A stretch of 41,033 nucleotides of DNA from Candidatus Poribacteria bacterium (GCA_024278235.1 JAJRTO010000046.1:1-41033), one strand, 5' to 3'. Counted from the stretch's first letter, positions 3,856-19,342 are shown. Numbers and translations: made by a program. The notes: a model not told the origin generated them from the letters alone.

Positions 3856-5451
3856 TTAGTTGCCTTCATGCACCTCAAGTGATTTCAGGTACACGAAGAT
3901 CTCCGTGTAACGCTTCTCAGCGTAGTCACGGGCTTGTTGTACTTGCTCATAGGGAGCCGGCTTATTGATGGGATACTTGTCGAGTAGATACTTGTAAGCT
4001 TCCATCGCCTTTTCCCAATTCTCCATCACAACGTAGCTCTCGGCAATTTGGATATAGCCGATATCGGCCAGGGGAGCATTTGGGAATTGCTCCGCAAGGT
4101 CTTCGAAGACCTTGATGACATCCATGAGCTTCTGGTTCCGTGCTTCATCTGCGAGGAGTTTCGCACTGTCGAGCATATCCTTACCACGCGTATAGATGTC
4201 GCGTGTGAGCAGATCTTCAGTCTCGACAATGTACTCTTTCGCCAGACGCTGAGATTCCGGCTTGATCCCGGGCAGTTCAGAAGCACGCTGATAGGCTTCC
4301 AACGCGAGACGATAGAACCGTTCTCGCTCCTCAGAGGAAATGTCCGTGTTCGAGCCCTGATTGAAGTAGTTGTTCCCGACATTGATGAAGGCATCCGGTG
4401 CATACTGGCTATCGGGATATTCATTTGCCAGGATCTCATTCAACTCATAGACCTTGCTCAGGTTTGCATCCCGGTTCTTAACATCACCCTGGGATTCCGC
4501 CATGTCTGCTATCAGTTGATAACAGGTCGCCATCGCGTAGAGGGAATCCGCAGCGCTTTCGTGCTGAACATCCATCTGCCGCACCTTTTCGTACTCCTGG
4601 ATGGCTGTCACATAATCCTGGGCAGCATAAAAGGATTCCCCTGCCTGGTATTGCCACAGAGGAGCGTCTTCGTCTTTCGGGAAACGACGCACGAGATCCT
4701 TGAACGTAGCAGCCGCCTGATTGAAGATCATGGGATCCAGTTCAGCCATACGCGCCAGTTCAAAGTACGATGAACCGACATAGGTGAGGGCATCCCGGAC
4801 GTTTTTCTGGATCTCCGAATCCTGGGCAACGCCCTTGAAATATCCCTGATCCGCAAGTTTCACGAAAGTCTCGAGAAGCGGGATCGCATTTTGCAGATCG
4901 GACTGGAATCGGAGGAAGTAGTAAAGCTGACCCGACTGGAACAACGAGTGCATCACAAAGGCTCGTGAACTTTGCTCGAGCTGATCCAGAGGCTGGGCCA
5001 ATTCATAAATCTGGGCATAAGCACTCGCGGTCTCACGGACAGAGTTCTTGTATTCTTCCGTGGGAACCTGATTTTGCAGGCTCTGCCTTATTTTGTCTGT
5101 CTTCAGAGCAAGCATATAGGACAATTGATACTGCGCTTGCAGTTTCTGAGCGATGGGGATGTTGGCATCCGCAAGAGCCATATCCCTTGCCTTTTGGGCC
5201 TCCGTAATTGCAGCTTCCAGGTTGCCCGTCTTGATCAACAGATCGGAACGACGTACCATCGCATCGGAAACCATGTCGCGGATGGTGCTGTGCTGACTAC
5301 CCGAATACTCTGAAACCAGATTGGTGAATGCTTGCAGTGCATTCTGCGTTTCGTTCAGGTTGTTCTGGTAGATGAGTCCCATACGATAGTAGGACTGTGC
5401 GCGTGTCAGTTCATCCTGGGATGTTTCGATAGCCTTCTGATAATTCACCAC
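3856..5451 (-). CDS. C-terminal part of a giant TPR protein (gene broken)
   Basis: The 531-codon frame holds tandem tetratricopeptide-like repeats with the W/Y-A-Y-P spacing typical of YbgF/BamD-like proteins, for example NWEKAMEAYKYLLDKYP. The GTG at 5451 is not a natural start: two codons upstream is an in-frame TAA (5457-5455), and beyond it the same repeat reading continues (AIAYAYDDQLQNYD). With 5751-8489 it forms one ancestral gene: 3856-8489 is 4634 bases, one short of 1545 codons, so one lost base plus two stops explain the break. Alone it has no signal peptide. It may be expressed from an internal start, be dead, or be an assembly artefact. TPR arrays are protein-binding scaffolds; the partner is unknown. 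Confidence 0.75.
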   Translation of the reverse strand: MVNYQKAIETSQDELTRAQSYYRMGLIYQNNLNETQNALQAFTNLVSEYSGSQHSTIRDMVSDAMVRRSDLLIKTGNLEAAITEAQKARDMALADANIPIAQKLQAQYQLSYMLALKTDKIRQSLQNQVPTEEYKNSVRETASAYAQIYELAQPLDQLEQSSRAFVMHSLFQSGQLYYFLRFQSDLQNAIPLLETFVKLADQGYFKGVAQDSEIQKNVRDALTYVGSSYFELARMAELDPMIFNQAAATFKDLVRRFPKDEDAPLWQYQAGESFYAAQDYVTAIQEYEKVRQMDVQHESAADSLYAMATCYQLIADMAESQGDVKNRDANLSKVYELNEILANEYPDSQYAPDAFINVGNNYFNQGSNTDISSEERERFYRLALEAYQRASELPGIKPESQRLAKEYIVETEDLLTRDIYTRGKDMLDSAKLLADEARNQKLMDVIKVFEDLAEQFPNAPLADIGYIQIAESYVVMENWEKAMEAYKYLLDKYPINKPAPYEQVQQARDYAEKRYTEIFVYLKSLEVHEGN

Positions 5452-5826
5452 AGCTTAGTCGTAGTTCTGGAGCTGATCATCATAGGCATAAGCGATAGCA
5501 AAATAGGATGCACCAAGCGTCTGCGCATCGGTGGAATTGGCAATCAGATACTAATACTCGCGAATAGCTTCGGGGTGTTTCCCTTGACTCGCATAGAGTT
5601 CCGCCAGTTGAGTATGCGCCTGATAGACAATCGGTTTGCGATCCTCTTTTGTGACCTGATCCTCAAACCCGATGACCTTCTGGAACGCTGCTGTCGCGGC
5701 AGAGACATCCTGGAGTCGAAAATAAGCAAGCCCCTGGGTATAGTAGATACTCACGGACATATCGGCGTCGAGCTTGCCTTTGGTCGCTTCATCAGCAGCG
5801 GCGGCGGCGGCACGATAGTGGGCGCC
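5452..5826 (-). pseudogene. Disrupted middle segment of the giant TPR gene
   Basis: Between the two long TPR frames the TPR reading continues but is broken three times. Near 5822-5826 a base appears missing: restoring one G after GTA AAG gives KGAHYRAAAAAADEA and leads into MSVSIYYTQGLAYF (5760 down). An amber TAG at 5553-5551 follows HPEAIREY, and an ochre TAA at 5457-5455 follows LQNYD. A 31-codon open TPR segment lies between the stops. Both stops could come from glutamine codons by single C-to-T changes (CAG to TAG, CAA to TAA). Other genes here end normally at TAG and TAA, so reassignment of these codons is not supported. Confidence 0.75.
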
Positions 5827-8489
5827 TTTACCGCTGGATCCGTGGCGGCTTCCCCTTGCTTGAATTCACACACCGCAATCTGATAGTAAGCGATGGGGAC
5901 ATTCTCACTCGTTGGGAAATCCTCGATGAGTTTGCGATATTCGGGGACGGCTTCCGCAAAGCGATCCGCACCAAACAGGATGTGACCGATCTTCAATTGA
6001 GCGACCGCACGGGATTCTTCCTGAATCGTTGGCGTTCCAACCACCTTACGCAAACCTGCAACCAGGGCATCCGCAATTTCCGCTGAATCCTGGGTGGCCT
6101 CCATCGCCTCAATACGCCGGACTTCAATTTCGGCAAGACGTGTACGGACCTTGGAGTCTTCGATATCCCCGAATTGTGCGTTTGCGGCATCCGAAATCTC
6201 GATCACTTTCGCCCAGTGCACAGGGTCATTGACTGCGAGTTCCTTGTAGGCAAGTATCTGACCGAAGTAGGCCTCGACGACATTGGGACTTTCGGGGTAA
6301 TTATCAATCACTAACTGGAAGGCAGCCAGTGCTTTCTGCATGTCCTCCGGCGACTTCTGTCCACGCTCGCCAATGCTGTAGTAGCACAGACCGACCAGAT
6401 ACTGAGCGTCATCAGCGAATTCGCCCTGAGGGTTACGAGCGACAACAGCCGCGTACTGGTCTGCTGCTTCGTTATAACGTTCCTGATTCCTCAGCAGATC
6501 CGCGAGTTTGATCTCAGCAAGGGATTTGGTATCCGCTGAGAAACTATTATCAGTGAGTACCTGTTGATATTTCTCGATGCCTTTGGAGGCATTGCCTTCC
6601 TGCACAAACGTCTCTGCGGTCAGCAACTGAACACGTTCGTAATTGTCATAACCAGGCTGGAACTTGGCATACACATCCCGTGCATTTTGCCATTCCTTCA
6701 GCTTCTCATAAGTGAGCGCTTGATTGAGCAGACAGTTCTCGACCATCTGGGCCCGCTCTGGGAAATCCTGGCTCATGTCGAAATTAACGAGGAACTTGTC
6801 AACGGCTTCTTCATATGCTGCCACTGATTTCCGGAGATACTCCTCGTTGAATGCAACGTCTTTGTCATCTTCCTCGTAACCTTCCGGTTTTGCAAGGTTA
6901 TAGTAGGAAAGACCTTGCTGGAATTTTGCACTGAGTTTGAGCAGATGGAACTGAGGAAGATCACGGTAATCAGCCCAAACCTTCGCATATTCAGCCGCGG
7001 CGATCTCATAGTGTTTCACAGCCGTGGCGTAGTCCCCATCTTTCAGGGCATCCCCTGCGATCTGGAACTGGATATCTCCGAGTTTGGTCTGGATTTCCGC
7101 AGCTTGTAATGCGAAGTCTTCATCATCCTTGCGCTTCGCGATGAATTCCGCACCAACGCGTTGGACTTCATCGTTCCGCCCCATTTCGCTCAGGGTCCAG
7201 ATAGCACCGTAAAGTGCGTGAGGCGTGAATTGATCGTTCGGATATTCGTCGAGAACACGCTGATACCATGTGAGACCGGTTGCGAAGGCTTCCTGATCGT
7301 CTGTCGTGCGACCTAACTGGTAATAGCCTTCACCAATCTGGAAGATGGCATAGGGAACATATTCCGGCGGGTCGCTATGGTCATCGAGGAACTGCTTGTA
7401 GGAGGCAATCGATTCATTCCATGATTCGAGCTTGAAGTAACTATCCCCGATGCCGATCTTTGCCTCTGGAATGTGCGGGCTCTGAGGATACTCGTTCAGG
7501 AGTGTCTGATATGCCACCACCGCGTTCTGGAAGTCCCCTTCATCGAAATACACCCGGGCAATTTCATTCTGTATTTCTGAACGAAGCTCCGGATTGTTGG
7601 TATTTTGAAGGGCCAGTTCGTAGTTCTGGCGGGCATTATCATAATCTTTTTGCTTGGCGTAGATCGCGCCGAGGTCGAAATAGGCAGCCGTGACGAATTG
7701 ACTCTGGGGAAATTCTGAAATGAACTCATTGTAACGGTCGATTGCCGACTGGTCATTTCCGAGCATACGTTCGCAGAACGCCGCCTTATAACGAGCTTCT
7801 GGCTGCAGATCCTTGAAGATACGGAACTCTTCACTCGCAAGACGGTCAAATTCGATCCGTGCTTGTTCGTAGTTATCTTCCTTCAGGAAGGACTGGGCGA
7901 TCAACTGCTGAGCATCATCTTTGTATTCAGAGTTCGGAAAATTATCCAGGATCTCTTTGAAACCTTTACGGGCTTGCGGATAGTCTTCGATCTGGAAATT
8001 CAGCTTCCCGAGAGCATACCAGGCATTCTCAACAAAGATGCTTTGTGGGAAGTTGTCGATCAGTTCCTGGAATTTTGGGCGAGCTTCTTCATACATATCC
8101 TGTCGGAATAGGATATGGCCCCACAGGTAGATGATACCTTCCCGATGCTTAGGAACCGTAGCCGTTTGGTAGATCTCCTTGATGATGTCCTCCGCCTGGG
8201 AATACAGCGATATGTCCCCCTGCTGAGCCCAGTTGGCATACGAAACAGCGATACGGTACTTCGCCAGTGTGGTGAAGTCCTCGTCGATCACCTTGGTGTC
8301 AACCAGGGGCTTCGTGCTCTCCTCAAGAGCTTCTTCATATTTTGCGATCGCTTCACTGAAGTTACCGGCCTGGCGCAATGTTTCTGCCTCATTATAGAGG
8401 TCTTCGACCCTCTTGGAACTTCCTGTGGGCCAAAACAGAACGACAGCAAGAGCGATACCTGCAACGATTCCCAGTATTTTGGGATTCAT
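5751..8489 (-). CDS. N-terminal part of a giant membrane-anchored TPR protein
   Basis: The start at 8489 has AAAGGAG ten bases upstream. Residues 4-20 (KILGIVAGIALAVVLFW) form a single signal-anchor helix, so the rest probably lies in the periplasm. Then come about 20 tandem TPR-like units of 35-40 residues with a conserved A--Y---L--YP core, for example ARPKFQELIDNFPQS and YPQARKGFKEILDNFPNS. The last 25 residues (PTIVPPPPLLMKRPKASS...) are out of frame, produced by the frameshift near 5822-5826. It follows the ECF sigma/anti-sigma pair on the same strand by about 90 bases and resembles the TPR lipoprotein at 10126, suggesting related envelope scaffolds. The intact product would have been about 1544 residues. 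Confidence 0.85.
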   Translation of the reverse strand: MNPKILGIVAGIALAVVLFWPTGSSKRVEDLYNEAETLRQAGNFSEAIAKYEEALEESTKPLVDTKVIDEDFTTLAKYRIAVSYANWAQQGDISLYSQAEDIIKEIYQTATVPKHREGIIYLWGHILFRQDMYEEARPKFQELIDNFPQSIFVENAWYALGKLNFQIEDYPQARKGFKEILDNFPNSEYKDDAQQLIAQSFLKEDNYEQARIEFDRLASEEFRIFKDLQPEARYKAAFCERMLGNDQSAIDRYNEFISEFPQSQFVTAAYFDLGAIYAKQKDYDNARQNYELALQNTNNPELRSEIQNEIARVYFDEGDFQNAVVAYQTLLNEYPQSPHIPEAKIGIGDSYFKLESWNESIASYKQFLDDHSDPPEYVPYAIFQIGEGYYQLGRTTDDQEAFATGLTWYQRVLDEYPNDQFTPHALYGAIWTLSEMGRNDEVQRVGAEFIAKRKDDEDFALQAAEIQTKLGDIQFQIAGDALKDGDYATAVKHYEIAAAEYAKVWADYRDLPQFHLLKLSAKFQQGLSYYNLAKPEGYEEDDKDVAFNEEYLRKSVAAYEEAVDKFLVNFDMSQDFPERAQMVENCLLNQALTYEKLKEWQNARDVYAKFQPGYDNYERVQLLTAETFVQEGNASKGIEKYQQVLTDNSFSADTKSLAEIKLADLLRNQERYNEAADQYAAVVARNPQGEFADDAQYLVGLCYYSIGERGQKSPEDMQKALAAFQLVIDNYPESPNVVEAYFGQILAYKELAVNDPVHWAKVIEISDAANAQFGDIEDSKVRTRLAEIEVRRIEAMEATQDSAEIADALVAGLRKVVGTPTIQEESRAVAQLKIGHILFGADRFAEAVPEYRKLIEDFPTSENVPIAYYQIAVCEFKQGEAATDPAVKAPTIVPPPPLLMKRPKASSTPICP

Positions 8490-8578: not shown

Positions 8579-9475
8579 TTATTGGTTCGTCCGATCCTCG
8601 ATCACGAGATTCGTGGGGGAAGCCACTGGATAAACCAGACGATCCAGTAGATCAGCAAAAACATAACCCTGGCGTATCCTCGATGGTGCCACAGGTTCAT
8701 CGAAGTTACGCGGTAACATAACAACGGTTGGATTCGTCGTCGGCATAGTGACTTCCCGCAGCGGAACCTCCTCAGATTCTGCGTTTGCCGAACCAACGAT
8801 GTCCAGTGTACCTACAAAAAGCAGTTTGCCGTCCTTCAATTCGACGGCACGTACTTCCATACCTTCGGAATGCTCTATCGGTAGAGGTGCGACAAATCCG
8901 TAGGCCCGATGATCGCTGATCTCATCACCCTTCAACCTGTCCGCAGCTTGTCCCATCAACTGAAGTCCCCGTCGGCTGAGCGATTGGCCGGAATCGGACA
9001 CAGAAGCTGGGGCATAAGCCGTGTCAGTCACCAGAGCTTTCCGAATCATCCCCGGGAGATTAGGCCGGTAATAGTAGCGATCAACCCATATCCCTGCAAA
9101 TATCAGAAGAATGACCGTGACGAGTGTCTGTAAACGTCGTTGCCATCCCCCTGCATCCATCACATCAAACCACGTCGCCTGCCAAGCACGGACTTGCAGC
9201 ATAATGGACCCGAACGTCCGCTGCCACCAATGGCGAGCGACCTCCTGCTCTAACTTGTCCAGCAGTTGCGATTGCAGATCCTCCAATCTCTCTGATGAGA
9301 TCGATTCCATCCGTCCAGAGGCACGAATCAGATCAATGGTCAGTTCGAGCGCGTTTCGTTCGTCTGCACACACACGGCATTCCCGTATGTGCTTCTCGAT
9401 CTGACGGGATGCCTCCTCCGGGAGAATCCCATCCAGGTAATCCGATAATTGTCGTTGGATTTTCTCACATTGCAT
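8579..9475 (-). CDS. Zinc-binding anti-sigma factor (zf-HC2), membrane-spanning
   Basis: A 298-residue protein directly downstream of the ECF sigma gene. The N-terminal anti-sigma zinc motif is H29-x3-C33-x2-C36 (HIRECRVC). It is followed by a charged helix, one membrane helix at about 114-131 (LQTLVTVILLIFAGIWV) and a roughly 165-residue C-terminal, presumably periplasmic domain of unknown type. The ATG at 9475 is preferred because AGAGGA lies seven bases upstream; an ATG at 9523 overlapping the sigma stop is possible but lacks a ribosome site. The product should sequester the sigma factor at the inner membrane until an envelope signal releases it, by family analogy. No cleavage site for regulated proteolysis can be recognised. 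Confidence 0.88.
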   Translation of the reverse strand: MQCEKIQRQLSDYLDGILPEEASRQIEKHIRECRVCADERNALELTIDLIRASGRMESISSERLEDLQSQLLDKLEQEVARHWWQRTFGSIMLQVRAWQATWFDVMDAGGWQRRLQTLVTVILLIFAGIWVDRYYYRPNLPGMIRKALVTDTAYAPASVSDSGQSLSRRGLQLMGQAADRLKGDEISDHRAYGFVAPLPIEHSEGMEVRAVELKDGKLLFVGTLDIVGSANAESEEVPLREVTMPTTNPTVVMLPRNFDEPVAPSRIRQGYVFADLLDRLVYPVASPTNLVIEDRTNQ

Positions 9476-9516
9476 CTTGCTGTCCTCTGATCCGTTCACC
9501 ACACGGCGTTCACAGC

Positions 9517-10068
9517 TCAACATTCCGTATAGGGGCGTAAGAAGATCTGTAGCCGCTTGCGTGCATAGTGAAGTCTGGAACGCACTGTGCCTTCTGAGCA
9601 CTGAAGGATCGACGCAATCTCTGCATGCGTCAACCCTTCTAATTCATGAAGGATCACCACACTACGGTGGTGTGGTGACAAAGCATCGATGGCCTGACGT
9701 ACCCAATACTTGAGTTCTTTCTTTTCCAGCTTCTGATGGGGATCCTCGGCAGTTCTGCGGGGCATCGCCTCTAAAGCGGCTGCCTGATACTTAGCGCGCC
9801 GCTCAGATTTCTTGACAGCGTTGAGCGACAGATGAACCACAATGCGATACAACCACGTTTCAAAGGAGGATTCCTTGCGAAACTTACCGATAGACTGAGA
9901 CACCTTCAGAAATGTCTCCTGGAAGATATCCCCGGCGTCTTCGTGATCCCGGGTGATACGATAGGCCACACGATACACAAGGTGTTTGTACTTTTCGATG
10001 AGGATCTCCAGAGCCACCTGATCACCAGCCTGTACATGCTCTACCAGGATAGCATCTGCTTGTTCCAT
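9517..10068 (-). CDS. ECF RNA polymerase sigma factor (RpoE-like)
   Basis: A 183-residue sigma factor with regions 2 and 4 only. Region 2 carries YRVAYRITRDHEDAGDIFQE and SSFETWLYRIVVHLSLNAVKK; region 4 carries LSPHHRSVVILHELEGL followed by the helix-turn-helix HAEIASILQCSEGTVRSRL. The length fits the family. The ATG at 10068 has GAGGAGG nine bases upstream; the frame is open further back, but the earlier candidates overlap that ribosome site. It lies 57 bases after the TPR lipoprotein gene and 41 bases before the anti-sigma start, the standard pairing. It probably directs transcription of envelope genes when released. No clear autoregulatory ECF promoter could be picked in the short gap before it. 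Confidence 0.93.
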   Translation of the reverse strand: MEQADAILVEHVQAGDQVALEILIEKYKHLVYRVAYRITRDHEDAGDIFQETFLKVSQSIGKFRKESSFETWLYRIVVHLSLNAVKKSERRAKYQAAALEAMPRRTAEDPHQKLEKKELKYWVRQAIDALSPHHRSVVILHELEGLTHAEIASILQCSEGTVRSRLHYARKRLQIFLRPYTEC

Positions 10069-10125
10069 ACGAACCATCCTCCTCAACCACCATGTTAGAC
10101 AACACAGCAAGGCAAAGTGTTCAAA

Positions 10126-11379
10126 TTATTCCTGTACGATTTTTGTCAGCCTTCGTTCGATCTGTTTATCTCTATCCGGAGAGATGTTTCGCAATGATTC
10201 GTAACGTTTCTGGGCATCTGCAGTCCGCCCCTCGGCTCGATATCGATCCGCTTCCTCGATCAATCGATCGACGGCTCCGGGATCGATCTGGTTCAGTTCA
10301 CGAAACATCGCCTGTGCCTTTTTGATCTCACCCACTTCTCGGTAGCATATTCCCAGGCGGAGGTACAGGTTTGCCTCCCGGATGCCCAGTTCGAGAGCCT
10401 TCTCAAGGGCCGCTCCCGCTTTGCGATACTCCTGGGTCATATAGAACATGAGCCCCATGTTGTAGACGGCGTCATCCAGCAGTGAGCCGTTGCCGGCCAG
10501 GCTCTCCTGCAATTCTTCTCCCCCGAACATCCCTTCCCCCCCGAGTAACAGTTCACGGACGTTGTATCCAAAAACATCCGAGGGTTGCCATTCATACAGC
10601 AGTTGCCGGGCATTCGGTCTCGTCGGAGGCCCCACCTCCCGCAATCCGCCCTCGGGCACTATCGGTGGTGCCTGAGCCAGAGCACCGAGTTCCTCCAGGC
10701 GATTCTCGGCCGAAGCCGCCTGCTCCGTATGGGGATACTCTTCCACCAGTTTCCGGTAACGGGCTACCGCCCGATCTCGACGTTGCATGTGTTGCGCGTA
10801 GAGATCCGCCTGGCGCAACAGGATTTCCGGAATCCGGGAAGATTCGGGATAGTAGCGAAGGTATTCTTCATATACCGTGAGTGCCTCCTGATAGCGTTCC
10901 ATCTTTACATAGCACGCTGCTCGTTGTAGATGAGCTTCCTGGGCACGGGGAGTGCGTGGGAAATCCATCATCAACTGGACAAATCTGGGCAGGGCTTTCG
11001 TGTACTCCCCACGGTTATAGTAATGCATCCCCAGCAACCACAGAGCCTCTTGAGCCTGCTTGCTCCCGGTATACCGCTTCGTAACATCACGGTAGATCTG
11101 CACAGCATCATCGGGCCGGTTGAGCTGCTCTTCATACAGCCTGGCGATGCGCAAGGTTGCATTCCGAGCGACCTCTGAACCCGGATGCTTCCGGATGATT
11201 TGCAGATACTGCGCAACGGCCCCCTGGTAGTTCCCTTCCTCCACCAGTCTGTCCCCCTGCCAGAGTTGGGTCGAAGTCGTACATCCGGTTAAAATTGTGA
11301 TGAGCAGGACGTGCAATACGAGGAGGGAGAGTAGAGCATCCTGTGGCAACCTATGGCTCAAAACTCGCTGTGTATTCAT
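10126..11379 (-). CDS. TPR-repeat lipoprotein
   Basis: A 417-residue exported protein. A hydrophobic signal (LLSLLVLHVLLIT) ends in the lipobox ILTGC with C33 as lipidation site, so it is likely anchored in the outer membrane. Repeats of the BamD/YbgF type follow, such as GNYQGAVAQYLQIIRKHPGS and ERYQEALTVYEEYLRYYPES, then a linker rich in P and G and two more TPR units near the C-terminus. The ATG at 11379 shares one base with the metalloprotease stop; a GTG one codon earlier is equally possible. The overlap implies translational coupling to the protease and caspase genes. The partner is unknown; it may tether other products of this operon. Confidence 0.85.
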   Translation of the reverse strand: MNTQRVLSHRLPQDALLSLLVLHVLLITILTGCTTSTQLWQGDRLVEEGNYQGAVAQYLQIIRKHPGSEVARNATLRIARLYEEQLNRPDDAVQIYRDVTKRYTGSKQAQEALWLLGMHYYNRGEYTKALPRFVQLMMDFPRTPRAQEAHLQRAACYVKMERYQEALTVYEEYLRYYPESSRIPEILLRQADLYAQHMQRRDRAVARYRKLVEEYPHTEQAASAENRLEELGALAQAPPIVPEGGLREVGPPTRPNARQLLYEWQPSDVFGYNVRELLLGGEGMFGGEELQESLAGNGSLLDDAVYNMGLMFYMTQEYRKAGAALEKALELGIREANLYLRLGICYREVGEIKKAQAMFRELNQIDPGAVDRLIEEADRYRAEGRTADAQKRYESLRNISPDRDKQIERRLTKIVQE

Positions 11380-14327
11380 CACCGCATCACCATCATTTTC
11401 CGCAACGCCGTGTTGGTTCCTACCCGGATCTTGTAGAAATAGCTTCCGCTTGCCACCGTTTCGCCGACCTCATTACGCCCATCCCAATAGATGGCATCGG
11501 CCTTTGAAACATAGACCCCCGCAGGGAGGTAGCCCAGAGCCAACTTCCTGACAATTTTGCCCTGGAGATCATAGATGGTGATTTGCACATCCCCGCCTGC
11601 CGTCATGACAAATGGGATCCAGGTTTCCGGATTGAATGGATTCGGATAATTCGGCAACAGGAACACCGCTTGAGCACCCACTATGGCAGGTGCTGCAAGC
11701 CCATAGGTTTCCCCAAAATGTTGACCAACCGAAACCAGATCCAGGATGTCCACCCAGCCATCGCCCGTCACATCAGGATTCTCATCGGGAGATCCCGTGA
11801 TCGCTTCCCCGAAATGCAGTGCCACGATGGTCAGGTCCAGCACATCCACAACCGCATCATCATTCACATCCCACGGACGGGGTTCTGAGATCTCGATAGC
11901 CACCGATGGTCCCCAGTCGCCGATTGTCCCCGCTTGATTGACCGCCCGGATCTGTGCCTGGTAGCTTCCGTTGGCCCCAGGAACGAAGGCGTAGCGCAAG
12001 ACATTTCCGGCCACTTCCGCATCGACAGTCCCCCCCTGTGCAGATACGACACGGATCTCGTACCGAGCAATGCCGCTGGTATCCGAGACGGCCTCCCACA
12101 CCAACTCAAGCGTTTGGCCGACAGTCGCACGATTCACAGGTGCTCCCTCGACGAGCCAGCGTAGATTGGCGGGGACAGCGGGTTTCTGTGTGTGGATCTG
12201 CAACTTGAAATGAGTTACATCCGTCCAGTAGCCGAGCGGATCGCGAGCCCGTACGTGGAGCCACCAGATGCCATCATCCAGTTGCTGAAATGAGAGATGA
12301 TTGCCAACCAAATCGGGGTCGGTGTCCGGTTCTGTATCTGCGGTCTGATCGAGGAGGTAGCTAAATTCAGACACCTCCGATTCAATCGTCAAATCGGGCG
12401 AGGCGTTGGCGACCCATTGTGTGGGATCGGGATGTGTTGCGGAGTGGACCACAGGGGCAGCGAGCGGCGTATGATCCACGAACACTTTCCCACGGCTGTA
12501 GGCTTCCGCGCTTGCGCCTCGGTTATCCGTAACACGCACCAATACATAGTATCCCCCATCTGACAGACTGCTGGTATCCCAGAGGTATTGGGTGATTGTG
12601 CCGTCAAGCCCTCGTATCATTGGGAATGTGTTGCCGGCAAGTATGTCCTGGTCATAATACAGATCCACGGTCAAAGGATCCCCATCCGGATCGCTTGCTG
12701 TCCAGGTAACCGTGGCGAGTTTCGGCGACAAACGATCGGTTGTATCCGGAGTTAAAACCGCAACAGTGGGCGGTTGGTTGCTCCGTAGAGGAACGCCATG
12801 ACTCGCAAAGATGAGTTCCGTGGCATCGTAATAGAGTCCCCGTTGCTTCCAGCGTTCGCCGAGCGTGCGGATGTCGGGCGGACGCTCCTCCGTCATGATC
12901 TGCCACGCATAGGGGAAGAGACTGTCGGCATCATCATCGTCCACTCCCGGCGTGTGATCGGTGCTCCGGGACGTGTCCGTGATGTCCCACAGAATACTGG
13001 CGACTGCTCCCTCAACGATGTTGCCGTCCATATTATTCCCGTTCCCATCCACTTCGCCTGTGTACCAAGCATTTTCCTCCACATTGGGCAGATCTCGGTT
13101 CACATAGCCGCGCAACATCAGCGCATCATCATCTACCGCGGCCTCCATGAATTCAGCCCAACCTTCGCTCATTGCAAACCCCGGGTCCGATACCGTGTTG
13201 ACATAATGCGGCTGATCGTATTCTCCATTGGGAATACGATCAAAATCGTTGTTGTAAGCGGCAGACATAACGGAATGACCATATTCGTGCAACATCGTGA
13301 TCCGTTCCCACGCATCGGCACTTACGATATGAATCTCATCGAAAAAAAGCGTGCCTTTCGTGAAGTAAGAGTAAAACGAACCTCCCTCATTTGTGGGCCA
13401 GATAATGGGGATGGGATCGCGCTCCCAGGAAACCTGGTTCACCAGAAAATCGTGGGCATCGATGATGACATTGAAAATATGTCCGGCACCGCGGCGATTA
13501 TGCGTGGCATCCAGGGAAACATCGAGTTCGATCAGGCCGTTGGGCACATCATGGACCACGTCTGAACTAAGGACATAGACCTGCTCATGGATATTTATCA
13601 GGCGCAAGGCTTCATTCTCGAACACAGCCGAGATGTACAGATCACGCAATCCGCCATCCTGTGGATCCACGTTGTCAATCTGAGCAAAGCGATACTCCCC
13701 GTCATTGTCTGTAAAGGTACTGTCGATCAGAACATCGCTTCCGGTATTGAATTCCCACAGCTCGACAAGTATCCTCCGAACCGGTCGGAGCGCGGTTTCA
13801 TTGTCATCGAAGTAAGTAACCGTCCCCTGTACTTCCACAGATTGCTGAGGTGCTCGCTGTATCACACGGCTCCGGGTTGCCATTTTCTGAACAGGTTCTC
13901 CAGGCAAAGGCGTTGAACTCACCTGCGCACCTGTATGGGTAACACGGACATAAACGATGAAATGGCGAGTCAGATGTCCCGCGTACAGTGAAACCTGGAG
14001 AGGATAAGTCCCTGGAGATTCGAAGCGTACGGCAAATGCCTGTGATATTTCCGCTCCGGCGGGGAGGTAAACGGGCATCCGAACGTCTGATTCCGCTGAC
14101 ACACCGACGGGCAGACGTAGCCACAGTTCCGCCTGTGTCGAGACATCCAGATGGGATTTCGTTGTCAGGATGAGAGTCGACATCTGTTGAAGACGGGGTG
14201 GGGAAGCGAAGGACAGATTCCCTGTGATATCAGGAGGAGGAAAACGGCGTGCTTCGACCGTGGTCGAGAACGAGAGCGTAGATAACAGTACACCGAGGAT
14301 GATGCATAACGACCATTGGTATCTCAA
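11379..14327 (-). CDS. Secreted HExxH zinc metalloprotease-like protein with Ig-like, dockerin and C-terminal sorting domains
   Basis: A 982-residue exported protein. Signal peptide at residues 5-27 (SLCIILGVLLSTLSFSTTVEA). The catalytic signature is H347-E-Y-G-H351, with a second acidic motif SEGWAEF (E388/E392) about 40 residues later, as in gluzincin-type zinc peptidases. A carboxypeptidase-regulatory-like segment (TYFDDNETALRPVRR...) precedes it. Afterwards come Ig/FN3-like domains (PPTVAVLTPD; GIARYEIRVVSAQGG), a dockerin-type calcium pair (DVNDDAVVDVLDL and DVTGDGWVDILDL), and a FlgD-like tail beginning NYPNPFNPETWIPF. The TTG at 14327 is preferred: AAGGA lies six bases upstream and it follows the caspase stop by 13 bases; a TTG at 14360 overlaps the caspase gene. 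The dockerin may bind a cohesin partner not seen here. Protease activity is inferred. Confidence 0.85.
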   Translation of the reverse strand: MRYQWSLCIILGVLLSTLSFSTTVEARRFPPPDITGNLSFASPPRLQQMSTLILTTKSHLDVSTQAELWLRLPVGVSAESDVRMPVYLPAGAEISQAFAVRFESPGTYPLQVSLYAGHLTRHFIVYVRVTHTGAQVSSTPLPGEPVQKMATRSRVIQRAPQQSVEVQGTVTYFDDNETALRPVRRILVELWEFNTGSDVLIDSTFTDNDGEYRFAQIDNVDPQDGGLRDLYISAVFENEALRLINIHEQVYVLSSDVVHDVPNGLIELDVSLDATHNRRGAGHIFNVIIDAHDFLVNQVSWERDPIPIIWPTNEGGSFYSYFTKGTLFFDEIHIVSADAWERITMLHEYGHSVMSAAYNNDFDRIPNGEYDQPHYVNTVSDPGFAMSEGWAEFMEAAVDDDALMLRGYVNRDLPNVEENAWYTGEVDGNGNNMDGNIVEGAVASILWDITDTSRSTDHTPGVDDDDADSLFPYAWQIMTEERPPDIRTLGERWKQRGLYYDATELIFASHGVPLRSNQPPTVAVLTPDTTDRLSPKLATVTWTASDPDGDPLTVDLYYDQDILAGNTFPMIRGLDGTITQYLWDTSSLSDGGYYVLVRVTDNRGASAEAYSRGKVFVDHTPLAAPVVHSATHPDPTQWVANASPDLTIESEVSEFSYLLDQTADTEPDTDPDLVGNHLSFQQLDDGIWWLHVRARDPLGYWTDVTHFKLQIHTQKPAVPANLRWLVEGAPVNRATVGQTLELVWEAVSDTSGIARYEIRVVSAQGGTVDAEVAGNVLRYAFVPGANGSYQAQIRAVNQAGTIGDWGPSVAIEISEPRPWDVNDDAVVDVLDLTIVALHFGEAITGSPDENPDVTGDGWVDILDLVSVGQHFGETYGLAAPAIVGAQAVFLLPNYPNPFNPETWIPFVMTAGGDVQITIYDLQGKIVRKLALGYLPAGVYVSKADAIYWDGRNEVGETVASGSYFYKIRVGTNTALRKMMVMR

Positions 14328-14340
14328 ACGTGATCCTTGT

Positions 14341-16572
14341 CTATTTGAAATTCCATACAAGCCCGGCTGTCATGTTGTATCCCGCGAGCCAGACTTCATC
14401 TTCCCGTATAATATCAGCAAGCGTGCGGAATTCGAAGGCTTTGTATCGGAAGCCGAAGCCCAGGCCCAGACCTGTTGACGATATCTCCATCGGATCCTCC
14501 ACGTAGACTTCCTCCGCGCCGTTTGTGACGGACCAAAGCACATCCTCTGTGACGCTCGTGCTGGACCAGAGCACATCCACGACATACATCATTTCAGAAG
14601 CCGGTGAGGAAAAATTCATGTAGCGCAGTCCAAACCGGGAAAATCCTTGACGCCAGGTCGTCCCATCTTCGTCCCCAATGCCATCACTAATGACAGCGTA
14701 ATCACCCGATTTCCCGGCATAAGATGCGGATAGCATCAGGTAAATCCCCCGCTTGGATATCCGCAAACCAGCGTCTATGCCGCCTGTAAGCCAGGGCTTT
14801 CCGTAGCTATCAACGACGAACTCGTCGACAGGCGCGTACAGCCCACCGTGGATGCCGATAAACCCTCTCGGTAATTGTCTCTTTTGAACCTGAGGTTCAG
14901 TCGGTGGAGGTGTTTCTGTCACTTGCGGACTCGACGCCTGTGGTTCCTGCTCCGCCGCTGTTGGTGGTTCAGGCTTCGTTTCAGGCTCAGGTTCAGGCTT
15001 CGTTTCAGGAACAGGTTTTGACTCCGGTTCAAGTGTCAGTGTTATCCGCGTGGGCCCATCCGTTGTGATCTCGATCGTTCGGATCGTGGATTTGTAGCCA
15101 TCCTTCTCTGCAATCACACGGTAGATACCAGCGCGGAGTTCTGTTGCCTGAATGCTCACCTTCGTTTGGCCTGTTGGTTGGATGATGAGGTCTTTTGAAG
15201 CGATCGATTTACCATCTGAGGTGAGGATCGTCACTTTTGCGTCAGGAGGTTTCACATCGACATACAAGGTCCCCAGCCGTGGTTTCTCTGTTATCTGAGA
15301 ACTGGTATCGAATTCATGGATCACCTGTGCTCGTTGGGCAAATTCAGCGACAGAGATTCGACCGGTTCGCAGTGAATCGATCTCTGCCAGCAACAACGAC
15401 TCCTGCTCGGTCAGCAGTTCTCCACTGATCGACTTATCATATGCCGACTGTATGACTTGCAGTGAAAACTCCTTGAGTTCCTGATCCAGACCTTCGAGGC
15501 TCGCCCTGAGAATTGCCTTTGTCCTTTGATTGAAGATATTTCGCTGTTCCTGAACAAACGTCTCGCGTTCCGCTTGATTGATGGCGAGGGGGATATCACC
15601 GCGCACCTGTCCAAAATCATAACGACGCGTTGGTTTTTGAACCCGTGGAAAGTTCTCGCGCGTATATTCCGGCACTTTATCCTCGACGTACATGGCCACC
15701 TCTGTGAAGGTAATGATACCATCGCCATTCGCATCGGCTTCGCCGTTCAGCCCCTCCAGCAGGAAGCGCGTGAAAACACCGTTCTCTGCGGTTTCCCATG
15801 AAACCTCTGATTCGTCGGAGGAGAGCAACAATGCGCGTCCTTCCGCCTTCCGGAATGTTTCCAGATAACGCCGGACAAGACCTGTACTTGCCATCGCCCG
15901 TGCTCCCGCAGGTTTGACCCCTCCGGCGTGACAGGCATCCAGGATCACGACAGCCTTTTTGGCTTGCATCGCGCGGATCTTCTTTGCAAGGTCATCGAAG
16001 TTGATACAAGTGGCGGCAAAATCGCGGACATCGAGATCATAGGGGATCAGATAAGTGCTTTCACCATCAGCTCCGCGGTAGCCATGCCCACTGAAGTAGA
16101 AGATCACCATATCTTCCGGCTGAGCACGCCTTGCGATGTCATTGAACGTGATGAGGATGTTGCGCCGAGTTGCTTCCGCATCGGTAAGCGTAAACACATG
16201 ATCGGCATCGAAGCCGCCCCTGCGTGGATCTTTCAGAAGTTCGGTGAGTGCCGTCACGTCTTTCACAGGAGCCCTTAGCGGTTGAATCTCATATCCACTG
16301 ACAGACCTGGGATAGTTCGCAATGCCCACCAGAAGGGCCCAACGAACACCTTGCATGGTATCGAAAGATGCCGTGCTATTTGAACTGTCATCAACAATGG
16401 AAGCTCTGGGGGGTTCCTGCGCGACCAGGGGAGGAGGGATTGCGATACCTATCACGACACATATCGTTAGCCATTTTACGATATTCATTAGCATAGTTGT
16501 CCATGAGTATTGCGCATCCCGATAGATGAAGGCGGTGGATGCATGTGTATGCGAGACACACGGAGGAATCAT
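14341..16572 (-). CDS. Exported caspase-like (C14) protein with EF-hand, PEGA and beta-barrel-like C-terminus
   Basis: A 743-residue protein. The caspase fold at about 77-325 carries the His-Cys dyad in FYFSGHG (H163) and VVILDACHAGG (C214). A canonical EF-hand loop follows (D280-A-N-G-D-G-I-I-T-F-T-E291), suggesting calcium control as in metacaspases. After a helical stretch come a PEGA domain (about 434-515), a PEP/TKP-rich linker (516-565), and a C-terminal region of alternating strands from GFIGIHGGLYAP to AGLVWNFK, which looks like a small outer-membrane barrel. The signal peptide lies at MLMNIVKWLTICVVIGIAI (28-46). The ATG at 16572 overlaps the upstream stop by four bases; an ATG at 16494, directly before the signal peptide, is a real alternative. 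The caspase domain would sit in the periplasm, which is unusual. The substrate is unknown. Confidence 0.88.
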   Translation of the reverse strand: MIPPCVSHTHASTAFIYRDAQYSWTTMLMNIVKWLTICVVIGIAIPPPLVAQEPPRASIVDDSSNSTASFDTMQGVRWALLVGIANYPRSVSGYEIQPLRAPVKDVTALTELLKDPRRGGFDADHVFTLTDAEATRRNILITFNDIARRAQPEDMVIFYFSGHGYRGADGESTYLIPYDLDVRDFAATCINFDDLAKKIRAMQAKKAVVILDACHAGGVKPAGARAMASTGLVRRYLETFRKAEGRALLLSSDESEVSWETAENGVFTRFLLEGLNGEADANGDGIITFTEVAMYVEDKVPEYTRENFPRVQKPTRRYDFGQVRGDIPLAINQAERETFVQEQRNIFNQRTKAILRASLEGLDQELKEFSLQVIQSAYDKSISGELLTEQESLLLAEIDSLRTGRISVAEFAQRAQVIHEFDTSSQITEKPRLGTLYVDVKPPDAKVTILTSDGKSIASKDLIIQPTGQTKVSIQATELRAGIYRVIAEKDGYKSTIRTIEITTDGPTRITLTLEPESKPVPETKPEPEPETKPEPPTAAEQEPQASSPQVTETPPPTEPQVQKRQLPRGFIGIHGGLYAPVDEFVVDSYGKPWLTGGIDAGLRISKRGIYLMLSASYAGKSGDYAVISDGIGDEDGTTWRQGFSRFGLRYMNFSSPASEMMYVVDVLWSSTSVTEDVLWSVTNGAEEVYVEDPMEISSTGLGLGFGFRYKAFEFRTLADIIREDEVWLAGYNMTAGLVWNFK

Positions 16573-17579
16573 CGCATAATACGTTTCGCGAGTACAATGA
16601 CAAATAGTGGAATTGAGAACATGCCGATCATCGCTTCGAGTATCACGAACAGCTTAAGGTGTGGAGGTATTTCCAAGAGCGCGACACTTCCCATAGTCGC
16701 AAAAGTAGCGACACTGAAGTAAAGTGAGTCCACGATTCGAGCCAACAGATTCCCGGCGTCACTCACATTCGATCCGCCCATGACGAAATATGTAACGGCA
16801 AACAGCAGGATGATGGTACTACAGAAGATGAGCACATTCTTGATCCGCTCACCGTAACCACAGATGGTCTCATACAGCAGCGTCGAGAACCATTTCCATG
16901 AATGAGGCTCCAATTGCATCCTCTTCATCAGCATTTCTCGATAGTGCATTTCACTGGCATCGTCGTACATGCCACCTTCTTTGTAGACCGCTTTGGCCTT
17001 GCAGTAGCTCTCCTCTGCGCTGACCCACACGCCGGCATGGTGATAAGCCGTGCCGGACTGTGCGTAACTGAGACCGGATGCCTGCCAGGCGCGAGCCCGC
17101 CGACACGCTTCTCCCGACTGTTCGTAACTTGCCCCCACTTCTTGCCAGCTTTGCACCTGCTTGTAAGCCTCGCCCGATCGGCGGTAGTATTCACCCGCGG
17201 TGATAAAATCATCGTCCGATTCATAAGCAAATGCTGCCTGACTGTAGTGGAGGCCGGCCGCCATCCACTTGCCAAGTTTCTCGTAACACTCAGCCGACTT
17301 AACATAACTAATGGCCGCCTTCCGCCATTTACTAAACCGCTTATAGGCTTCCCCGGACTGGCCATAATTGAAAGCAGCACGTTCCCAGTATCCAGAACCT
17401 TCATAAGCATAGCCGGACCAACCATACCAGAGCCCTGCCTTCTCATACTCACCCGCTTTGTAGAGTCCCCGGGCTTTACGTTCGACGAGCTTCGCGCGCT
17501 CCAGCAGCAAGACATGACTTTCATTGACCGACGCCAGCGCGCTTGATTCGATGACAGTTGTCTGTTCGGAGTCCATCAT
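16569..17579 (-). CDS. 20-residue-repeat protein fused to a degenerate two-TM ion-channel domain
   Basis: A 336-residue protein. Residues 41-200 are eight exact-length 20-residue repeats with consensus W--A---Y-QSGEAYK, probably alpha-helical hairpins of TPR/SNAP type. The C-terminus matches the layout of repeat-linked Ion_trans_2 proteins: CGYGER before TM1 (about 247-267), a pore-helix segment DSLYFSVATFATMG (about 284-297), then TM2 (309-331). Where potassium channels have GYGD, this protein has GSVA, so the selectivity filter is lost and conduction of potassium is doubtful. Start and stop overlap both neighbours by four bases (ATGA), implying tight translational coupling with the secreted protein and the caspase. 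No signal peptide precedes the repeats, so they probably face the cytoplasm. Confidence 0.8.
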   Translation of the reverse strand: MMDSEQTTVIESSALASVNESHVLLLERAKLVERKARGLYKAGEYEKAGLWYGWSGYAYEGSGYWERAAFNYGQSGEAYKRFSKWRKAAISYVKSAECYEKLGKWMAAGLHYSQAAFAYESDDDFITAGEYYRRSGEAYKQVQSWQEVGASYEQSGEACRRARAWQASGLSYAQSGTAYHHAGVWVSAEESYCKAKAVYKEGGMYDDASEMHYREMLMKRMQLEPHSWKWFSTLLYETICGYGERIKNVLIFCSTIILLFAVTYFVMGGSNVSDAGNLLARIVDSLYFSVATFATMGSVALLEIPPHLKLFVILEAMIGMFSIPLFVIVLAKRIMR

Positions 17580-18271
17580 GGCACATTGCTCTTAAGATAA
17601 GCCCACGTGATTGGTAATTTGCCTTCGGTCCGGACAGCGATTGGGCCTTCTACCACCACGTCGTAGTCAACCAATTCAAAAACAACATCGCTGGTATTGA
17701 TCTCTTTCACAATGCCAACATCTGGTGCCAGCCACATGAAGCGTTGAAACGACAGTTGGCCAAGTACAAAGCTGAGTTCGATATCCTGACGGATCTTGAA
17801 CACGCCCAGAAATGTACCCGCAGGCACCGTCACATCTTCGATTGCCACGACCTGGCCCCGATTATTCGTTGAGATGATAGTATCTGCAACCATCGCTTCA
17901 CCAGAAACGGTCCAGGTGGTGTCTAAATTCAAAGGAATGGGGAGAAACACTTGGGGGGGATTATAGTCGAATTCCAGATTGAAATCGCCGAGATGAACTT
18001 CTGCCCGATGGATCCAAATCCCATCATTCTCTGTCACGACATACAGGCGATCCGGAGGATTGTCATTCGTTTGCCCTTCGAACACAGTGACCAGACGATC
18101 CCTCAATAGTTCCTTCCTGACAACCTCATTGACCCGCGTATCGAGTTCATCCGTACTACGGAGTACCCATCGGTTACCAACACGATCTGGGTAATAGTTC
18201 TGAGCTGCTGCAAACATGGCAAACCCAAAGAAAACAAACATGACAACACAAAACCGCATTAAAAGCCTCAT
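17576..18271 (-). CDS. Secreted protein of unknown function
   Basis: A 231-residue protein with a clear signal peptide (FCVVMFVFFGFAMFAAAQ, cleavage near residue 23). The mature part starts NYYPDRVGNRWVLR and later has a paired-strand pattern ending FMWLAPDVGIVKEI, a layout common in small exported beta-rich proteins of this kind of bacterium ('YYP-GN-W ... A-GVG-VK'). GAGAG lies before the ATG at 18271, nine bases after the previous stop. It is the first of the overlapping five-gene run (18271 to 10126). I cannot name a family with confidence; a lipid- or ligand-binding beta-barrel-like fold is a guess. Confidence 0.75.
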   Translation of the reverse strand: MRLLMRFCVVMFVFFGFAMFAAAQNYYPDRVGNRWVLRSTDELDTRVNEVVRKELLRDRLVTVFEGQTNDNPPDRLYVVTENDGIWIHRAEVHLGDFNLEFDYNPPQVFLPIPLNLDTTWTVSGEAMVADTIISTNNRGQVVAIEDVTVPAGTFLGVFKIRQDIELSFVLGQLSFQRFMWLAPDVGIVKEINTSDVVFELVDYDVVVEGPIAVRTEGKLPITWAYLKSNVP

Positions 18272-18280
18272 GACGCTCTC

Positions 18281-18943
18281 CTAGAAAGCTGTGAGGAGAT
18301 ATCCCAGCAATACCCCAAGCATCACAACACCAATACAACCGATGACAACCAAGAGAGCAATGCCAATGGAGATCCCTGTTTCTGGTTCGGAAGACTCGCT
18401 CCAGAACTCACGTTCTCCCTTGTCCTGTTTTCGCTTCGGAGGAGTCGTGAGACTGGGAACAGACTTTTCACCTGCCCAGGTTGCACGTCGCTGCTCCTTG
18501 ATCTTCTCACGAAGTTGCTCTTGGATGTAGGCATGCTGTCGCTGAGAGGATTCTTTGTTCTGATCATGGAAGATCCGCAAACGCTGAGGTGGATCATCCG
18601 TCGGCGAGTTATCGACTGCCGCTTCAGAGGTGGCAGGAGGATCTGATGGATTCACCTGCTCAACAGGTTCCACGGTGATCAGACGATCCTCTTGTATCTC
18701 ATGGTTCTGTTCTGCATATTCGGTGGGTTGGGTTGGTGTTGCTATCACTTCCGCATGGTCATCCGCTCGTCGCAAAACAGAAACCTTACGTCCGGCATCA
18801 GCAGAACTCTGCTCTTGAACCGAGTTGTCGTCCTGAAGTGGATCCTCTTTTTTTCGTTTGCGGGTACGAATCCCCCAGGATGCGCGACGTGATTCCTTAT
18901 ATTTTTCCTTGAGGATACGTTTATCCTTTTCACTTAAGGACAT
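18281..18943 (-). CDS. Tail-anchored protein of unknown function
   Basis: A 220-residue protein with a long charged, low-complexity N-terminal part and one C-terminal membrane helix (IGIALLVVIGCIGVVMLGVL) ending four residues from the stop. A short motif is repeated: SRRASW near the N-terminus (about residue 20) and QRRATW near 155, each within a basic segment; it looks like a docking or phosphorylation-type short linear motif. The soluble part most likely faces the cytoplasm. It has no resemblance I can name. The ATG at 18943 follows the cyclophilin-like stop by 21 bases with a purine-rich site (AGAAGAGGA), so it belongs to the same transcript. Confidence 0.65.
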   Translation of the reverse strand: MSLSEKDKRILKEKYKESRRASWGIRTRKRKKEDPLQDDNSVQEQSSADAGRKVSVLRRADDHAEVIATPTQPTEYAEQNHEIQEDRLITVEPVEQVNPSDPPATSEAAVDNSPTDDPPQRLRIFHDQNKESSQRQHAYIQEQLREKIKEQRRATWAGEKSVPSLTTPPKRKQDKGEREFWSESSEPETGISIGIALLVVIGCIGVVMLGVLLGYLLTAF

Positions 18944-18964: not shown

Positions 18965-19342
18965 TCAACTTTCGCCTGGTTCAATACTCACCACGGCGCC
19001 ACTCCGAACACGTTTGAAATCCTTTGGATCGCCAAGCAATTTCCCAACGACCTCAACAGCACTCGCTGGTCGGATTTCATCCCCATGACTGGCGGGGGTA
19101 CGCCCAAAGAAGATGCAGAAGGCGTTTCCAGGGGGCCAGTATCCGAGATCACCCAGCTCAACGACTTCCTGACCATTTTCGAGACCGGCCTGAACGGGAA
19201 TCGAAAAGTAGATCTCCTCCCCCCATGTTGAACCTCGGGTTTCAATGGGAAGCGCGTCCCAAATAGCTTGTGCTACCTTACCATCGTTCAACTCAGCTTC
19301 CATACTTACATCACCAGCGGTGATGAGGATTTTCTTACTCAT
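18965..19342 (-). CDS. Cyclophilin-like fold protein (TM1367/DUF369 family)
   Basis: A 125-residue protein with the small beta-barrel pattern of the TM1367-like cyclophilin-fold family: ILITAGDVSMEAELND at the start, ALPIETRGSTWGEEIYFSIP, then DLGYWPPGNAFCIFFGRTP, the most conserved stretch. Such proteins lack the usual prolyl-isomerase active site and their function is unsettled. GAGGGG precedes the ATG at 19342, and a strong promoter lies at 19401-19429, so this gene appears to begin the long minus-strand transcript. It may be unrelated in function to the caspase genes downstream. Confidence 0.8.
   Translation of the reverse strand: MSKKILITAGDVSMEAELNDGKVAQAIWDALPIETRGSTWGEEIYFSIPVQAGLENGQEVVELGDLGYWPPGNAFCIFFGRTPASHGDEIRPASAVEVVGKLLGDPKDFKRVRSGAVVSIEPGES

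Follow-up and report, generated by a model that had tools for sequence, protein, structure and literature searches.

A caspase gene and a channel-like gene within a secretion operon beside an ECF sigma switch in Candidatus Poribacteria: a probable composite of neighbouring units

Introduction

Pairs of an ECF sigma factor and a zf-HC2 (ZAS-type) anti-sigma factor combine a sigma protein containing regions 2 and 4 with a single-TM anti-sigma factor whose N-terminus binds zinc, and they use a bipartite promoter of the autoregulatory type with AAC at -35 and GTC at -10. The pair described here has all of these features; unlike the known pairs, its third conserved gene encodes a giant membrane-anchored TPR protein, and no further promoter sites rise above the control level in the genomes scanned. 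Bacterial caspases and orthocaspases (Peptidase_C14; caspase_w_EACC1) are characterized by a p20 fold, a His-Cys dyad and an ADxNxDG motif after the catalytic domain. The caspase of our locus shares these elements, although it scores 118.2 bits against the cut-off of 140 for NF047832 (caspase_w_EACC1), is predicted to be exported, carries a PEGA domain and ends in a private C-terminal region.

The two-TM Ion_trans_2 K+ channels, of which KirBac3.1 is the nearest solved sequence, align with a third protein of the locus through TM1, pore loop and TM2, and a CGYGE(K/R)P motif before TM1 is common to this protein and its distant homologs. Unlike the K+ channels, which have the filter T(V/L)GYGD, the protein and its orthologs read ATMGSV, ATLGHAE and ATLGQSE, and our protein has an N-terminal SNAP-like superhelix. 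The Hailong effector HalA is a more remote comparison: the channel-like protein reaches 16.1 bits where the model requires 250, and neither a HalB partner nor a nucleotidyltransferase occurs among the annotated adjacent genes. Finally, the secreted Por_Secre_tail/FlgD_ig proteins of Poribacteria-like genomes share with the metalloprotease of the locus a C-terminal sorting-type domain with the sequence PNPFNPETW. Such domains are known from Poribacteria, where a 2014 single-cell study reported that the TIGR04183 tail is carried by many proteins, while structural genes of Por secretion were not found (PMC3909097). Our literature search on caspases associated with ECF sigma factors returned no matching system.

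Results

We analyzed a stretch of 41,033 nucleotides (GCA_024278235.1 JAJRTO010000046.1:1-41033, hereafter the window), contig 490 in a genome assembly of 5.19 Mb and 536 contigs. In its Por_Secre-type tails, its abundance of TPR proteins and its size this genome resembles Poribacteria. A first-pass annotation had described positions 9475-18271 as one coupled cassette linked to an ECF sigma switch. The genes it named are all real, lie on the minus strand in the order it gave and are tightly packed: a DUF3108-like secreted protein with a signal peptide (17576-18271; Pfam PF21347, 7.8e-9), a channel-like protein joining a SNAP/TPR-repeat superhelix to a two-TM Ion_trans_2-type pore module with the degenerate filter ATMGSV (16569-17579; Pfam SNAP 5e-10, Ion_trans_2 3e-4), a Peptidase_C14 caspase with a His163/Cys214 dyad, a helical region, PEGA and a C-terminal region of 150 aa (14341-16572; Pfam 2.8e-23), a secreted HExxH metalloprotease with dockerin-I repeats (Dockerin_1) and the FlgD_ig/Por_Secre_tail C-terminal domain (11379-14360; Pfam), a TPR lipoprotein with CpoB/BamD-like repeats and the lipobox LTGC (10126-11382; domain search), the ECF sigma factor (9517-10068) and the anti-sigma factor (8579-9475), whose body falls outside the annotated range. 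The tight coupling it reported also held: DUF3108/channel, channel/caspase (with the far start of the caspase gene) and metalloprotease/TPR lipoprotein each overlap by 4 nt and caspase/metalloprotease by ~20 nt, after which come gaps of 57 nt from the lipoprotein to sigma and 41 nt from sigma to anti-sigma. The row extends beyond this range on the same strand. Upstream there are a C-terminally membrane-anchored (tail-anchored) protein with one TM at 195-213 (18281-18943) and a cyclophilin-like protein, likely the first gene of the upstream operon (18965-19342; PF04126, Pfam 8e-43); downstream, the anti-sigma gene is followed by a giant TPR gene, at 8489 to 3856.

We compared this neighbourhood with those in 85 genomes of the phylum including its own, the other 84 all belonging to families and orders other than those of the window. 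Recurrence of the row in relatives was found in part: two sub-blocks recur, one of cyclophilin-like, TM, DUF3108 and metalloprotease genes and the other of TPR, sigma, anti-sigma and giant TPR genes, while the full set of caspase, metalloprotease, channel, TPR and sigma genes was not found in any of the 84. We therefore read the region, with a probability of about three in four, as a composite of neighbouring units rather than as one system. Unit A would be an old secretion operon from the cyclophilin-like gene to the metalloprotease; unit B, the SNAP-repeat channel-like gene and the exported caspase, would have been inserted between DUF3108 and metalloprotease in this lineage; and unit C would be the sigma switch. 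The unit boundaries come from this comparison.

Judged from homology and gene order, unit A appears to be a secretion operon widespread in the class, made up of the cyclophilin-like protein, the tail-anchored membrane protein, the DUF3108-like protein and the dockerin metalloprotease. Six related genomes have all or some of it; in five of them (G080, G012, G036, G071 and G003) the DUF3108-metalloprotease pair is kept, with the DUF3108-like ortholog (34-44%) directly before that of the metalloprotease (38-43%). Cyclophilin-like orthologs, 60-65% identical, head the operon in G036 and G005: at L122 of G036 this gene (60%) and a membrane protein precede the DUF3108-metalloprotease pair, and at L128 of G005 they stand directly before the metalloprotease, with DUF3108 elsewhere. 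The membrane proteins there are positional homologs of the one in the window (27%, 3e-12 in G036; 24%, 2e-8 in G005). A pattern scan placed a weak sigma-70-like site, TTGAAC-17-TATACT, ahead of the cyclophilin-like gene (19429-19401, minus strand); as a promoter it is only a suggestion, since scans for sigma-70 promoters and terminators found sites in the region at chance level. Similar proteins of 283-284 aa, PmoA/DUF6807-like by eye and absent from the window, are encoded near the metalloprotease in G003 (L124, 12430-13284) and G004 (L127, 1533-2384).

Among the 85 phylum genomes, a caspase and a channel gene between DUF3108 and metalloprotease occur only in the window. They may have been recruited to the DUF3108-metalloprotease genes as a lineage-specific operon for joint processing of envelope or secreted proteins, independently of sigma. 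We give this reading somewhat less than an even chance; it is compatible with a composite origin, and functional coupling of units A and B is quite possible. The 4-nt overlaps of DUF3108 with channel and of channel with caspase, the 20-nt overlap of caspase with metalloprotease, the lack of clear ribosome-binding sites at the inserted genes, and the intact catalytic dyad and open frames all argue for it, and unit B appears to be translationally coupled into the operon of unit A. The arrangement is nevertheless known from one genome only, neither gene accompanies the unit A operon elsewhere, and a recent insertion can look equally tight. Such an operon is possible in the family or order of the window, since all 84 compared genomes lie outside both. 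The tight overlaps also favour co-transcription of unit A, unit B and the TPR lipoprotein gene, which counts against the composite reading.

The sigma switch itself was correctly recognized by the first-pass annotation. The sigma factor matches regions 2 and 4 (Pfam Sigma70_r2 and r4_2; orthologs 42-58%), without a match to region 3, and starts at an ATG, a TTG at 10110 falling inside its own promoter; the adjacent anti-sigma factor has an N-terminal zf-HC2 domain (PF13490, 1.3e-9) and one TM at 114-132. Immediately before the sigma gene lies a predicted ECF-type promoter, TTGAAC-N18-GTCTAA (TTGAACACTTTGCCTTGCTGTGTTGTCTAA; 10124-10095, minus strand). No other exact match occurs in the window or in the rest of its genome, and with up to 2 mismatches allowed the window still gave no further site, close to units A and B or elsewhere. 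The motif occurs with identical spacing before all eight orthologous sigma genes, from five families, whose upstream regions we inspected in detail (the window, G004, G005, G013, G030, G065, G071 and G015), the last bases varying in two of them. When TGAAC-N-GTCT was scanned with spacers of 12-25 in seven of these regions (141 kb, both strands), the spacing of 18 gave 8 matches and any other 0-2; a stricter pattern matched once in the own genome, and in a first set of eight genomes its five matches all lay at the sigma gene.

Across the phylum the motif is present in 63 of the 85 genomes, usually once; it has 68 sites there, and the reversed pattern used as a control has 16. In 59 of these 63 genomes it shares a contig with the giant TPR gene and precedes it by ~1.4-3.1 kb (two tables compared by eye). 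All 15 further promoter-bearing loci inspected keep the promoter first and then the sigma, anti-sigma and giant TPR genes, and in none of them was the TPR lipoprotein of the window matched as the upstream neighbour; we therefore place the boundary of the sigma module at the promoter and regard the switch as a core element of the phylum. In G005, G065, G030, G071 and G013 the lipoprotein does stand together with sigma, anti-sigma and a TPR protein, the latter reaching 1560 aa; G005 has an additional gene ahead of sigma, and G015, cut by a contig end, shows the group in part. The lipoprotein appears to be a frequent, not a universal, neighbour. Neither a caspase nor the channel nor the full-length metalloprotease of the window lies upstream in these six groups. 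A sigma gene beside the DUF3108-metalloprotease pair of G003 (L124, 34%) was considered as an ortholog and rejected, the ortholog being at L239 (51%, with promoter).

Sigma, anti-sigma and giant TPR protein thus seem to form an autoregulated ECF switch that nearly the whole phylum has and that apparently acts at a single site. The single-TM zf-HC2 anti-sigma factor would hold sigma at the membrane, and sigma, presumably once released, would transcribe its own promoter, giving a transcript that covers sigma, anti-sigma and, by read-through, the giant periplasmic TPR protein. Because the genes of the caspase set are located upstream of this promoter and carry no copy of it themselves, control by sigma is not predicted for them, and they cannot belong to the transcript that starts from it; adjacency is all that speaks for sigma control of the caspase.

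This bears on the proposal of the first-pass annotation that caspase, metalloprotease, channel and TPR lipoprotein form a single cassette for periplasmic proteolysis, stress response or cell death under the ECF sigma. The overlapping genes on one strand through to sigma are in its favour, as is G004 (L127), where ~3 kb with four unrelated genes separate the metalloprotease from the sigma gene downstream of it; this is the only other hint of unit A beside unit C and makes a looser old neighbourhood of the two possible. We nevertheless consider the single cassette improbable: the set was not found in the 84 other genomes, nearly all of which have the sigma module on its own, the only ECF promoter stands downstream of the set, just before sigma, and channel and caspase were never seen adjacent elsewhere. 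Read-through from the upstream genes into sigma is possible.

The giant TPR gene has an ortholog in 81 of the 85 genomes and is in most relatives one open frame of ~1550 codons. In the window the homology follows one frame to ~5826 and another from ~5763 and then meets two in-frame stops, that is, the gene carries one frameshift (~5763-5826) and an in-frame TAG (~5553) and TAA (~5457). Either decay or an assembly error could account for the interruption. The lesions all fall within ~370 bp (5450-5830), though the gene is intact in nearly all relatives.

The caspase is most likely an exported cysteine peptidase acting on envelope or extracellular substrates. His163 and Cys214 of its p20 domain are invariant in the alignment of homologs, and a signal-peptide-like stretch at ~27-45 begins at Met27/29; the start is uncertain, and if Met27/29 is used, a gap of ~75 nt to the channel gene replaces the 4-nt overlap. 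The EF-hand that had been assigned to the protein was not found by Pfam: the ADxNxDGxIT motif follows the catalytic domain at the same place in most homologs aligned and is a family-wide feature. A C-terminal outer-membrane barrel was considered and not confirmed; the AlphaFold pLDDT is mostly <35 for 540-743, and the C-terminal 150-aa region has no homolog in the 85 genomes. The closest homologs, in G006, G009, G011 and G003, are up to 48% identical in the shared part, have neighbours different from those in the window and differ at their C-termini (DUF4384-like, sulfatase-modifying-factor-like or membrane segments, by eye); no channel ortholog was found in these genomes. The own genome has six caspase-domain matches in all, and a search of further genome contigs gave only a distant match in Telluribacter.

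One strand of L091 (G006:C104:1-14390) carries four caspase-domain genes within 12 kb, and the closest relative of the window caspase is among them. A caspase stands beside a 281-aa TPR/Ig-like membrane protein, which may be a recurring partner, in two genomes of different families and in opposite order (L094, 10580-12995; L098, 9538-12456). By eye, caspases at L101 (708-2498) and L097 (1876-3561) have a C-terminal formylglycine-generating-enzyme-like (sulfatase-modifying) domain.

The channel-like protein has TMs at 249-267 and 312-330 with a pore loop, and its Ion_trans_2 score, 21.0 bits, is just below the Pfam cut-off of 22.5. AlphaFold modelled the N-terminal part with high confidence as a SNAP/TPR superhelix, closest in Foldseek to gamma-SNAP (2ifu), and the pore part poorly. 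As the protein lacks a signal peptide, its repeats are predicted to be cytoplasmic. Full-length orthologs were found only in two genomes outside the class (G083 and G084, 48-51%), where no caspase stands beside the gene and its neighbour encodes a lipoprotein whose repeat was judged by eye to be carboxypeptidase-regulatory-like; ~300 further genomes outside the phylum gave matches to the pore module only and no full-length ortholog. The GYG filter is present in all seven distant homologs inspected, and TxGYG is absent from all three orthologs, which have GSV (window), GHA and GQS. From these alignments the protein appears to be a K+-channel scaffold that lost its K+ filter, and it most likely sits in the membrane without selectivity for K+, its cytoplasmic repeats serving as gate or scaffold.

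Discussion

If the locus is the composite that we favour, a lineage-specific neighbourhood has been kept from being named a new death or stress system. A bolder combination of the above elements can be imagined, in which the caspase and the filter-less SNAP-repeat channel are a working pair built into the secreted-metalloprotease operon: the cytoplasmic repeats would sense a ligand and alter ion flow or signalling at the envelope, the caspase would act outside the inner membrane, and read-through into the ECF module would tie the pair to a stress response. We regard this as a long shot. It is highly improbable that channel and caspase entered the operon as an effector pair for defence or cell death. 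In favour of this reading are a weak match of the channel module to HalA (E 0.005), which covers the pore part only and is far below the cut-off, and the match of the caspase to the generic PADLOC caspase model. Against it, the caspase has an export-signal-like stretch and PEGA instead of the arrangement of a cytosolic sensor, no nucleotidyltransferase, STAND ATPase or integrase is among the annotated adjacent genes, and PADLOC found no other defence gene of note.

Within the composite, two parts merit attention beyond this window. The SNAP-repeat clade with a K+-channel scaffold and no GYG filter would be a small case of channel repurposing. The nearly phylum-wide ECF switch with its giant TPR partner suggests itself as a candidate core circuit of envelope homeostasis in an uncultured phylum. 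Sites with one mismatch to the promoter showed no excess over the control genome-wide, and a larger sigma regulon was not detected; one with weaker sites may exist. In the own genome there are three additional sites with one mismatch, and a quick look at them showed no recognizable promoter setting. A second exact copy of the promoter is found elsewhere in a few genomes (G056:C59:26332, G056:C123:26516, G064:C69:109587, G081:C279:4056 and G028:C105:84608), and these copies could be further targets of sigma or chance occurrences.
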